Positions 48,773-58,431 of a DNA stretch of 58,655 nucleotides are shown here, in pieces. Numbering within the stretch: the stretch's first letter is position 1; every line of letters starts with the position of its first letter. Source of the DNA: Microcaldota archaeon (lineage in GTDB: Archaea > Micrarchaeota > Micrarchaeia > Micrarchaeales > CABMGC01); NCBI GenBank assembly GCA_021801225.1, contig JAJYYF010000012.1, positions 1-58,655 on the forward strand. The letters run 5' to 3'. The notes under the pieces were generated by a model that saw only the letters and a list, made by a program, of their open reading frames with translations, ran no database searches and was not told the origin of the DNA. Made by a program: the position numbers and the translations under genes.

Positions 48773-49777
48773 TTACAGATTTACATCTATATTAAGTTCG
48801 TGTTTAAGTTCTCTGTATCTATTCCTTATAGTTACTTCTGTAACTCCTGCAACATCTGCAACTTCTTTCTGAGTTCTTCTTTCTCCAGCAAGAGCTCCTG
48901 CTATATATACGGCTGCTGCCGATACTCCTGTAGGACTTCTTCCACTTATTAAACCTTTTTTCATTGCCTGCTTCAAAAGAGTCATTGCTTTTTCTTGCGC
49001 TTCTCCACTAAGCTTCAATGCAGCAACGTATCTAGGAACATATGCTGATGGATCTGTTAAAGGTATTTTTAAATTAAGTTCATGTGCTATTATCCTATAA
49101 GTTCTGCCTATTTCCTTTTTAGACACATTAGATATCTGTGATATCTCATCTAATGTTCTAGGCATTCCTGCACTTCTACAGGTTGCATACAAAGCTGCGT
49201 TTACTACTGTTTCTATAGGCCTTCCTCTTATTAAGTTATTTTTTACACATTGTCTGTATAATAAAGCAGTCTGTTCTCTTATATTATCTGGCAAACCCAA
49301 ATAACTTGCAACTCTATTCAACTCTGGCAAAGCAACTAAATAGTTTCTTTCACTTGAGCTTGCTATACTAGCTCGTTTGTGCCATTTTCTCATTCTATAT
49401 AATTGAGCTTGCCTTTTTGAAGAAAGTTTAGTACCTCTTATATCTTTATTGTACATATCTATTTCAGTAACTAATCCTTTGTTAGGCTTCATGTACTTGA
49501 TTGGAGCTCCTGTTCTTGCTCTGGCGTTTCTTTGATCTGAGTCGAATGCCCTCCATTCTGGACCAGAGTCAGTAACATTTTCTTCAATAACAAGACCACA
49601 GTTGTTACAAATATACTCTCCTCTTTCATTATCAAATATTATATCAATACTTGAACATGCAGGACATTTCTTACTTGCACTACCTAACTTGTTACTTTTA
49701 TATGATTGCTTATTCTCTGTATCACTATTATCAATTTCTTCATTTTCTGTTTTATTTGATTTTTCAGTTCTAGCCAT
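48773..49777 (-). CDS. tfb: Transcription initiation factor B
   Basis: 334 residues. A zinc ribbon (CPACS and CNNCG, residues about 38-62) is followed by the B-reader/linker (DSGPEWRAFD), and two cyclin repeats (ELNRVASYLGLPDNIREQTALLYRQ and the second with ALKLSGEAQEKAMTLLKQA), then a C-terminal helix-turn-helix that should read the BRE. It works with TBP, whose only copy seen here is the one-repeat protein at 56667-56990. Basic Lys-rich leader of 35 residues. Confidence 0.95.
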   Translation of the reverse strand: MARTEKSNKTENEEIDNSDTENKQSYKSNKLGSASKKCPACSSIDIIFDNERGEYICNNCGLVIEENVTDSGPEWRAFDSDQRNARARTGAPIKYMKPNKGLVTEIDMYNKDIRGTKLSSKRQAQLYRMRKWHKRASIASSSERNYLVALPELNRVASYLGLPDNIREQTALLYRQCVKNNLIRGRPIETVVNAALYATCRSAGMPRTLDEISQISNVSKKEIGRTYRIIAHELNLKIPLTDPSAYVPRYVAALKLSGEAQEKAMTLLKQAMKKGLISGRSPTGVSAAAVYIAGALAGERRTQKEVADVAGVTEVTIRNRYRELKHELNIDVNL

Positions 49778-55261: not shown

Positions 55262-55603
55262 ATGGCTAATAAAAATACTCGAGAAAGTAAAGTAATAACA
55301 ACAGCAGAAGCACTAGAGATATTAGAAAAGAGAAAAAAAGACGGAGATATGGGTTACGAGCAACAAGTTTCATACGAACATATTAAAAAGTTTTCAAAAT
55401 TAGATGAATCAAAAGCAGCAAAAATAATTAAACAATTAAAAGAATTAGGCGTTTCTGATAAAATTTCAATACAAATAGTTGATGTACTTCCAGTAGATGA
55501 GTTACAACTAAAACAAATATTATCAAATGAAAAGACAATGCCTGAAGAAGAAACAATTAAAAAAATTATGTCTCTAGTAGATGAAAACAAGGGTAAATCT
55601 TAA
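55262..55603 (+). CDS. rpoF: RNA polymerase subunit F
   Basis: 113-residue Rpb4-like subunit of the archaeal RNA polymerase stalk (partner of RpoE). TAEALEILEKR at the N-terminus and ELQLKQILSNE in the HRDC-like C-terminus are family marks. TATA-like GGTTTATAATATC lies about 50 nt upstream, right after the insertion-sequence end. It is followed 19 bp later by DUF655. Confidence 0.92.
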   Translation: MANKNTRESKVITTAEALEILEKRKKDGDMGYEQQVSYEHIKKFSKLDESKAAKIIKQLKELGVSDKISIQIVDVLPVDELQLKQILSNEKTMPEEETIKKIMSLVDENKGKS

Positions 55604-55622: not shown

Positions 55623-56204
55623 ATGCATGAATTTGAACAGAAAAGAGATGATTTGGAAGAGTACGGAGTCGTTCTCGACTTTTTACCTACTGGCAAGTCT
55701 TTTTCAGTACGTTCAGAACCTATTGTTCAGATACTCGGTGAAACAAGATTTACTTTGTTAGAAGCTGTTCCTAAAGTACAAGGAATTAAAATAGCAGAAA
55801 GAATATACATTGGAAAAGGAGAAAGAGATAAAATTTCCTTAATAAAATCACGCTTAACTTATCAAAATTTAACTGAAGTAGCAAAGAACGAGCTTCCAAA
55901 TGCTATAATATCTATTATAAAAAACAACGAAAAGAAGTTTGTTGGATTTTTTAATACTGCTTCTCCAATAAATATACGTATGCATTCGTTAGAGTTACTT
56001 CCAGGAATAGGGAAGAAACATCTCACCTCATTATTAGAAGCAAGAGAAGACAAACCCTTTGAAAGTTTTGAAGACATGATAGAAAGGGTCCAGTTACTTC
56101 AAGATCCAATAAAATTACTTACTGATAGGATCTTAGTTGAGTTAAAAGGAGAAACACGTTTTTATATATTAACAAGACCTCCTGCACAGCCTAGACGACA
56201 ATAA
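55623..56204 (+). CDS. DUF655 RNA/DNA-binding protein
   Basis: 193 residues. N-terminal YGVVLDFLPTGKS and a C-terminal helix-hairpin-helix (LLPGIGKKHLTSLLEAR) with a following FESFEDM block are the DUF655 pattern. The family usually sits in the L21e-rpoF-DUF655-ksgA cluster of archaea, and does so here in part. Probably nucleic-acid binding; precise role unknown. Confidence 0.9.
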   Translation: MHEFEQKRDDLEEYGVVLDFLPTGKSFSVRSEPIVQILGETRFTLLEAVPKVQGIKIAERIYIGKGERDKISLIKSRLTYQNLTEVAKNELPNAIISIIKNNEKKFVGFFNTASPINIRMHSLELLPGIGKKHLTSLLEAREDKPFESFEDMIERVQLLQDPIKLLTDRILVELKGETRFYILTRPPAQPRRQ

Positions 56205-56290: not shown

Positions 56291-56578
56291 TTAAAATTTC
56301 TCAAGGTGCATTTGTGGTACAATTACCTTTCTTTTTATTGATTTAGAAACTGAGAACTCAACTACATAAGCGTCTCCTCTTTTTTCTACAATTGTACCAA
56401 TTCTACCTCTATATCTTGGATGAGGTATGTTCCTAAAGTTGCTTTTTTGTGATATAATTACCTTGCTTCCTACATCAAAGCGCTTTATTAATTTGCTTAT
56501 CCCTAACGTTGAAGGTTTATTGTGTCTTGACAAATTCCTTGTTCTTCCTATAAATAATCCGTGCGATCTTTGTGACAT
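56291..56578 (-). CDS. rpl21e: Ribosomal protein L21e
   Basis: 95 residues from ATG 56578 (MSQRSHGLFIGRTRN); an earlier in-frame ATG would add a hydrophobic, unlikely leader. Basic, with IPHPRYRGRIGTIVEKRGDA, the KOW-like core of L21e. In other archaea it is the first gene of the rpoF cluster on the same strand; here it points the other way, convergent with DUF655. Confidence 0.9.
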   Translation of the reverse strand: MSQRSHGLFIGRTRNLSRHNKPSTLGISKLIKRFDVGSKVIISQKSNFRNIPHPRYRGRIGTIVEKRGDAYVVEFSVSKSIKRKVIVPQMHLEKF

Positions 56579-56666
56579 TCTACTCACTAATGTTATATAA
56601 TATTCAATACACATTTATAGAAAAACATATAAATACCTTTCATATCTATTTATAAATCGTGGTTCA

Positions 56667-56990
56667 ATGCCAAGTAAATCAAACCCAGGGAAACATAATA
56701 AGAAATCAATACTTCATCCTGATTTCAAAATAGAAAACATAGTAGCAAGCGCCGATTTAGGCGTAGAATTAGATTTATATGCAATAGCAAAATCCTCTCC
56801 TGATGTAGACTATGAACCGGAACAATTTCCAGGAGCTATATGTAAAATACACTCTCCGAAGACTGCACTATTATTATTCAAGAACGGTAAGATAATCTGT
56901 ACAGGTTCAAAAACAGAGGCAGACATTAAAAAATCAATAGATCAAGTAATAAAAATAGTACAAAATCATATTTCTGAAAGAAAAGAGTGA
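56667..56990 (+). CDS. Single-repeat TATA-binding-protein homologue (half TBP)
   Basis: 107 residues containing only one TBP repeat (about residues 21-98). FKIENIVASADLG is the first strand, with Asn24 and Val26 where TBP contacts the minor groove; YEPEQFPGAI gives Phe54 and LLLFKNGK gives Phe71, the places of the DNA-kinking Phe pair; IICTGSKTEADI completes the repeat. A normal archaeal TBP has two such repeats in about 180 residues. Convergent DedA follows 10 bp later and L21e is upstream, so no second repeat is hidden. A 20-residue basic leader precedes the repeat. To form the TBP saddle it would have to homodimerise, or pair with another half elsewhere in the genome. Confidence 0.88.
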   Translation: MPSKSNPGKHNKKSILHPDFKIENIVASADLGVELDLYAIAKSSPDVDYEPEQFPGAICKIHSPKTALLLFKNGKIICTGSKTEADIKKSIDQVIKIVQNHISERKE

Positions 56991-57000
56991 AAACTCTTTT

Positions 57001-57603
57001 TTATCTTTTTTTAAATTTTTTCATGACTATTAAATATACGACATAAAGTGCTATTGCTAACACCGCTATCATTATCATTATTGTACTTATGCTTTTTCCA
57101 TTCAATGCATAAAATCCAAATGATACGAGCAAGATATCCCATATTAAAGATCCTAAAATCGAGTATAAATAAAACTGTTTTTTATTCATTCCTGAGAAAC
57201 CAGCAGGAAAACTTATTAAACCACGTAAAACAGGCACCATTCTCATTGTGAAAACAGCAGCAACTCCATTTCTGTTAAACCAGTTGTCGAAGTTCTCTAA
57301 AGTTTCCTTTTTGATTTTAAACAATCCTAAATGTTTATAAAAAACATCCTTGCTTATAAAATATGCAATAAAGTAATCAATACTTATTCCTATTACTCCA
57401 GCTACTGTAGCAACTATTAAAACTAGGTAAAAATTAAGGACTCCTTGAGCTGCAAAAACACCTGCTACTGGTAGTAAAATCTCACTAGGTATTGGTAATG
57501 AGGCTGATTCTAGTATCATTAATATTAATATAGCGAGATAACCATACTTTCCAACTATGCCGCTTAAAGCCGTCCCACTAAATATAGATAATAGATTAGA
57601 CAT
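57001..57603 (-). CDS. DedA/SNARE-associated family membrane protein
   Basis: 200 residues. ILESASLPIPSEILLPVAG is the family N-terminal motif and FNRNGVAAVFTMRMVPVLRGLISFPAG the core motif with conserved Arg and Pro. The C-terminal helix has a Lys-rich end. Members act in lipid flipping or membrane homeostasis. Tightly packed between the TBP and ksgA genes. Confidence 0.92.
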   Translation of the reverse strand: MSNLLSIFSGTALSGIVGKYGYLAILILMILESASLPIPSEILLPVAGVFAAQGVLNFYLVLIVATVAGVIGISIDYFIAYFISKDVFYKHLGLFKIKKETLENFDNWFNRNGVAAVFTMRMVPVLRGLISFPAGFSGMNKKQFYLYSILGSLIWDILLVSFGFYALNGKSISTIMIMIAVLAIALYVVYLIVMKKFKKR

Positions 57604-57657: not shown

Positions 57658-58431
57658 ATGAATTTCAAAGCAAATAAAAAACTAGGGCAAAACTTCTTAA
57701 TTAACAAGAATGTAGCCTTTGCAGAAGCAGCTCACGGTGAGGATAAGGTAGTCTTAGAGATAGGCCCAGGTAAAGGGATTCTTACTGAAGAGTTATGCAA
57801 TGTAGCTAAAAATGTAATTGCTGTTGAAAAAGATGAACGTCTGTATAACTATCTTAACTCAGTTTTACACAGAGATAACTTAACTTTAATAAACAAAGAT
57901 TTCTTTGATTGCACTAAAGATGAGTTATCAATCGATTCATTAGATATACTAATAGCAAATATTCCGTATAATTTATCAAGCAAGATCATTTCATGGCTTT
58001 ATGAGCATAAATTGGAAGCAGTTTTATGTCTACAAAAAGAGTTTGTGGAACATATGCTTGCTACAGAAGGAAATAAATCTTACTCAAAACTTAGTGTTAT
58101 GTCTGCTCTTTCATTTAAGATAACTCCTATGATGAAGGTATCAAAAAAAAGTTTTTTCCCAAAGCCAAAGGTAGACTCTCAAATAATTTTTATTAAACCT
58201 AAAAAAGAAGTAATATCTAAAAAAGAAGAAGAAATAATATCTTTAATAATGCAGCATAAAAAGAAGTTATTAAAGAACGCAGTATTGGACTCAAAAGAAA
58301 ATCTAAATTTGGATATGGAAAGACTAGAGAAACTCTTTATCGAAAACGCATCTTATAATAAAAGGGTATTCAAAATTTCTCCAGAACGTTTACTTAACAT
58401 TTCAAAAGAACTTTTAACACTTCAAAAATGA
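57658..58431 (+). CDS. ksgA: 16S rRNA dimethyladenosine transferase
   Basis: 257 residues. KKLGQNFL at the N-terminus, SAM loop LEIGPGKGILTEEL, and NIPYNLSS (motif IV, NxPY) mark the family. It dimethylates two adenosines near the 3' end of 16S rRNA. As in other archaea it lies close to rpoF-DUF655, but here TBP, L21e and DedA intervene. Its end overlaps the convergent edge gene by 10 nt. Confidence 0.94.
   Translation: MNFKANKKLGQNFLINKNVAFAEAAHGEDKVVLEIGPGKGILTEELCNVAKNVIAVEKDERLYNYLNSVLHRDNLTLINKDFFDCTKDELSIDSLDILIANIPYNLSSKIISWLYEHKLEAVLCLQKEFVEHMLATEGNKSYSKLSVMSALSFKITPMMKVSKKSFFPKPKVDSQIIFIKPKKEVISKKEEEIISLIMQHKKKLLKNAVLDSKENLNLDMERLEKLFIENASYNKRVFKISPERLLNISKELLTLQK

Follow-up and report, generated by a model that had tools for sequence, protein, structure and literature searches.

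We found that a Micrarchaeota archaeon encodes a TATA-binding protein (TBP) of a single repeat, half-TBP A (107 aa), and it is likely that this is the general TBP cut to one repeat, that its saddle is a dimer of halves, and that its history is one of reduction followed by re-fusion. Judged by sequence and structural modeling, A lacks the two-repeat feature of the TBP family and appears to fit as a working TBP in every tested respect. In archaea and eukaryotes alike, a saddle made of two repeats is regarded as universal, with a single ancient duplication as its source. The stretch analysed, called here the window, is a contig of 58,655 nucleotides from a genome assembly of 965 kb in 31 contigs, 91% complete.

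The gene for A runs from 56667 to 56990 on the plus strand, exactly the open reading frame claimed by an earlier sequence-only reading, and is identified by that frame, its Pfam match, an AlphaFold2 model and pN/pS. A scores as a TBP family member with the Pfam TBP repeat PF00352 at 101.9 bits against a cut-off of 22.9, and this repeat occurs once (residues 19–100) instead of twice in tandem. NCBIfam TBP models align over a single repeat, at 67–91 bits against cut-offs of 181–347, as expected of a half protein. The significant PDB sequence matches of A are all TBPs, and A aligns to each of them twice, at one repeat and then at the other. Neither side of the gene holds a second TBP repeat or, upstream, the room for one, again as the earlier reading had it: a 52-bp gap separates A from the divergent eL21 ribosomal protein gene (56291–56614, minus strand), and downstream lies a convergent VTT/DedA membrane gene (57001–57603, minus strand). 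Other neighbors encode Rpo4 (55262–55603), a DUF655 protein (55623–56204) and KsgA (57658–58431); a DDE transposase gene (PF01609; 54263–55141, plus strand) is inserted about 120 bp ahead of rpo4-DUF655. A candidate TATA box of the half-TBP A gene, ATATAAATA (56627–56635, plus strand), can be read directly from the sequence, and by general archaeal promoter spacing transcription would presumably begin some 9 nt upstream of the ATG. The same 52-bp gap contains a perfect palindrome, TTTATAAA (56649–56656), positioned as a minus-strand TATA box of eL21.

The reading frame of A is open in relatives that were assembled separately, and comparison with two close relatives gives pN/pS values of 0.087 and 0.130; the gene is thus under maintenance and is no error. 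This rules out an artefact or frameshift as the origin of A, and with it the sequencing error that had been named as a possible cause of its half size.

The residues by which TBP contacts its partners are in place. The first strand of the repeat (residues 23–30, ENIVASAD; codons at 56733–56756, plus strand; strand E25-30 of the model) carries the minor-groove Asn24 and Val26; by analogy with TBP strand S1 we expect it to be the central strand of the proposed dimer. The stirrup motif YEPEQFPGAI (residues 49–58; 56811–56840, plus strand) carries the intercalating Phe54, and residues 68–78, LLLFKNGKIIC (56868–56900, plus strand), carry the second intercalating residue, Phe71, within the FKNGK signature. 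A thus has both the minor-groove Asn/Val and the intercalating Phe pair of a TBP, and these residues, which the sequence-only reading had picked out, prove invariant among 44 half-TBPs; the invariant positions include Asn24, Val26, Tyr49–Ile58, Phe71–Lys75, Ile77, Cys78 and Gly80. From known TBP-DNA and TBP-TFB structures, we take these to be the regions that contact DNA and TFB. Lys stands at the FKNGK column (canonical F-x-S-G-K) in every micrarchaeal repeat, whether from halves or two-repeat proteins. The stirrup of A is of the C type that binds TFB, with Glu at a position that is mostly Asn in canonical N repeats, and the Asp at the ELDL column of the micrarchaeal repeat is of the N type; from this mixture, a single micrarchaeal repeat may do the jobs of both N and C repeats. 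The AlphaFold2 model of A (pLDDT 88) has the strands, helices and stirrup of the TBP fold and superposes on a human TBP repeat (1cdw) at 1.1 Å over 86 columns; all its significant structural matches are TBPs.

A search of the whole genome at E ≤ 10 returned exactly two TBP matches, A itself and one other, both single-repeat, and no two-repeat TBP, which speaks against the notion that a normal TBP in this genome makes A a dispensable paralog. The second match, half-TBP B (L002; 110 aa, 49% identical to A; contig 31, 14698–14946), is the only other TBP in the genome. The window also encodes a complete TFB of 334 aa (48773–49777, minus strand) with a zinc ribbon and two cyclin repeats (Pfam TFIIB 150 bits over two repeats, Zn_Ribbon_TF 65 bits), and an ordinary two-cyclin TFB was present in all 30 genomes examined.

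The distribution of half-TBPs was surveyed in sets of 60 and 116 relatives, covering Micrarchaeota genomes only. Single-repeat TBPs alone occur in ten family-level groups (f1, f2, f8–f11, f13–f15 and f17), and two-repeat TBPs in families f3–f7, f12, f16 and f18. The one exception, G094 of family f2, has two halves plus a two-repeat TBP on a short, foreign-looking contig. That contig (contig 43, 8.4 kb; L165) encodes a TBP whose nearest solved structure is Sulfolobus TBP, and is probably bin contamination from another archaeon. Almost every sampled f2 genome has a pair of half genes that lie far from each other; the single-contig genomes G042, G048, G058 and G083 are among these. Some f1 genera have both A and B, while g3, g11, g24 and g25 have A alone (2–6 genomes each), and families f8–f10, f13–f15 and f17 have one half gene only. 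When 25 single-half genomes were re-searched at E ≤ 10 with a profile of the 44 halves, every one yielded exactly one half-TBP, and nothing else credible as a TBP came up (G092 has two further fragments below threshold); they include G034, on one contig, and G074, 100% complete. These genomes rule out a full TBP missed in an incomplete assembly. Genus g64 of family f11 (G082 with L149, L150 and L151; G088; G100) has two or three single-repeat paralogs, which in G088 include two about 1 kb apart. Among the viral TBP-like matches examined, most were two-repeat and none was micrarchaeal-looking; a further viral scan gave no matches.

TBP is essential in archaea. Given this and the known chemistry of the saddle, a half that has no other TBP beside it must act as the TBP and is needed in two copies; A alone suffices, since relatives carry only A. 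We infer that half-TBPs dimerize, bind DNA and bind TFB, a dimer with self or partner being the sole way in which known TBP chemistry could work with a half. Two halves would pair through the edge strand that joins the two repeats in ordinary TBP, giving a ten-stranded symmetric saddle that would insert four phenylalanines, two per chain, into the TATA minor groove. In genomes with one half gene the saddle would be a homodimer; in the present species it could be A-A, B-B or A-B. Such a saddle would offer two equivalent stirrups for TFB, and direction would then come from TFB reading the upstream element; the TFB of the window is the expected partner of the half-TBP dimer and would provide this direction.

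A symmetric TATA box was sought as a signature of the homodimer in the upstream regions within 400 kb each of G034 (one half), G083 (two halves) and G134 (two-repeat TBP), with start codons guessed. A T-w-w-A core was found in all three alike, about equally symmetric in a one-repeat and a two-repeat genome and, with these guessed starts, if anything more palindromic in G134; promoters therefore give no independent support for the dimer. G034 and G083 also show an AA-rich BRE-like stretch upstream.

The two-repeat TBPs of Micrarchaeota bear on both mechanism and history. Identity between their N and C repeats reaches 79%, and a model of one forms a full saddle (pLDDT 95; TM 0.86–0.91 to the archaeal TBPs 1mp9_A and 1ais). 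Going by this model, the protein can be seen as the proposed half-TBP dimer in a naturally tethered form, and since two halves on one chain model as a complete saddle, the fused and free forms point to one interface. A profile classifier of N and C repeats, built over eight reference archaeal TBPs, scores canonical N repeats at -17 to -106 and canonical C repeats at +17 to +95, while micrarchaeal repeats of every kind fall near zero (group means -14 to +6), suggesting that the repeats of the two-repeat proteins have lost N/C identity. In three of these genes (L142, L132 and L136) the N and C repeats share identical tracts of 79–89 nt, which point to recurrent gene conversion between repeats. 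In G022 two near-identical A units are fused in frame at the end of contig 39 (L022; 99 of 102 shared nt identical), the fusion being cut by the contig end; this is a possible case of very recent TBP duplication-fusion.

In a repeat-level tree (84 rows, 88 columns), micrarchaeal repeats stand apart from canonical N and C repeats with support of 100/97; the halves branch first, and the micrarchaeal N and C repeats nest inside them at 93/70, on few columns. Trees in which micrarchaeal N repeats are forced to group with canonical N repeats are rejected (p=0.010), and those that force micrarchaeal C with canonical C marginally so (p=0.046). Species trees were rooted with Thermococcales and Sulfolobus RNA polymerase. 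In these, all two-repeat families fall into a single clade that sits within the one-repeat lineages (100/99 with RpoB+TFB; SH-aLRT 100 with RpoA′). A single loss, with one-repeat taxa held together, costs 38.9 log units on three genes and is rejected (AU p=0.0016); on RpoB+TFB it costs 6.2 log units and is not rejected (p=0.113), the test becoming significant after RpoA′ is added. The half-TBP likely arose by early reduction in Micrarchaeota, with re-fusion in one clade, as these trees suggest, and parsimony on the nested two-repeat clade favors one reduction and one re-fusion over four or five losses. The polymerase genes vary in their own right. RpoB is split in nearly all the sampled Micrarchaeota, with a C-terminal piece of about 600–700 aa, apart from G109 of family f12, where it is one 1097-aa frame (L199). 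RpoA′ and RpoA″ are one fused open reading frame in L319, L320 and L325 (families f10, f17 and f15), with the A″ motif continuing in frame; RpoA′ frames in the other sampled Micrarchaeota are mostly 775–890 aa, that of f13 also being long.

The strongest competing account, which we consider a minority position that still carries appreciable weight, is that a two-repeat TBP was kept throughout, its repeats homogenized by concerted evolution, and then reduced in four or five separate losses with no re-fusion. Gene conversion between repeats could possibly mimic re-fusion; the identical tracts show that conversion occurs, and the two-gene test leaves even a single loss standing. Against this account, the rooted three-gene tree calls for four or five losses in place of one loss and one gain, and the repeat-level tree has the halves as basal with the N and C repeats among them (93/70, few columns). 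It concerns history only, and the half-TBP dimer would work identically under it.

Reduction to one self-sufficient half is also to be weighed against a split, in which A and B would be the separated N and C halves of one ancestral TBP and work as an obligate A-B heterodimer. That both genes are present and far apart, here and in nearly all sampled f2 genomes, speaks for a split, as does an IQN motif in B reminiscent of canonical C repeats where A has IEN. The assignment of A as N half and B as C half hinted at by these motifs is unsupported by profile scoring over the eight reference TBPs: B lies on the N side (mean -14.4), like A (-9.5), far from the range of true C repeats. The caution of the sequence-only reading that a second half might lie elsewhere was thus borne out as far as a diverged single-repeat gene on contig 31 goes, but that gene scores N-side and does not look like a missing C-terminal half. 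Neither N/C orthology nor constant co-occurrence of the two genes was found, with A alone in four f1 genera and one half in seven further families. B is most simply a paralog that arose within the f1+f2 lineage, going by the repeat-level tree, and we regard a split as unlikely.

Very unlikely is the survival of an ancestral half-TBP that predates the TBP duplication. The single repeat is indeed the early-branching state in Micrarchaeota on the rooted trees. However, other archaea and eukaryotes have in common a TBP of two repeats, N and C, that differ from each other, so that Micrarchaeota would need to have branched before the duplication, outside all of these, and the mix of N-type Asp and C-type stirrup is as expected of a derived repeat. 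The earlier suggestion of an ancestral-like or secondarily reduced form is thereby narrowed: the trees favor secondary reduction, and the mosaic repeat disfavors pre-duplication survival. That A is a dispensable regulatory or degenerate paralog, the true TBP being absent from an incomplete assembly (one in which the C-terminal part of RpoB is also undetected), is scarcely credible given purifying selection, invariant functional residues and 25 other genomes, one on a single contig, with one half and no other TBP, and is refuted for the lineage unless every assembly lost the same gene.

Returning to reduction and re-fusion, we think it rather probable that a large part of Micrarchaeota initiates all transcription with a homodimeric half-TBP, and that the duplication and fusion behind TBP took place again there at least once and possibly three times, in addition to the very recent case in G022. 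If so, the assumed origin of TBP is open to study in living lineages: with a one-repeat TBP as the sole TBP, the ancestral homodimer that has been inferred becomes directly testable in the laboratory, as does the question of whether transcription can start from a symmetric TBP when direction comes from TFB alone. Free halves, recent fusions and settled fusions occur together in Micrarchaeota, with visible concerted evolution between repeats. For annotation, half-length TBP genes in these genomes should be taken as complete, not truncated. The key study of TBP domains is reportedly that of Brindefalk et al. in 2013. Single TBP-like domains are described for bacterial proteins in two papers (PMC7221094, PMC4132731); the former, a 2020 study of TBP lobes, assumes that archaeal TBP began with a duplication. 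In the open literature searched, no paper describes an archaeal TBP that is free-standing and of one repeat, though it may have been mentioned earlier; two DPANN genomics papers mention TBP merely as present.

Canonical two-repeat TBPs (P. woesei 1ais, M. jannaschii 2z8u, S. acidocaldarius 1mp9) resemble A in repeat fold (about 1–1.5 Å for well-aligned chains), in the Asn/Val/Phe residues that contact DNA, in the TFB-type stirrup and in co-occurrence with TFB. They differ in having two repeats per chain, whereas the saddle of A must be a dimer, and in keeping separate N and C features with FxSGK where A has merged features with FKNGK. Bacterial single TBP-like domains (the RNase HIII N-domain, DUF3378, and RnlA) share with A one TBP-fold unit per chain. 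These form part of larger enzymes, and their ligands are RNA/DNA hybrids or RNA; A, in contrast, is free-standing at 107 aa with no RNase H catalytic domain, keeps the DNA residues of TBP, scores as a true TBP and has no DUF3378 match (that of B is sub-threshold, E 0.00098). Archaeal histones and similar proteins, in which identical units pair to make what is elsewhere a fused single chain, offer a mechanistic analogy to the half-TBP only, with no homology. Closest are the micrarchaeal two-repeat TBPs, which differ in carrying two halves on one chain yet have the same FKNGK and PEQFPGAI signatures as the half, and which were probably re-fused from it.
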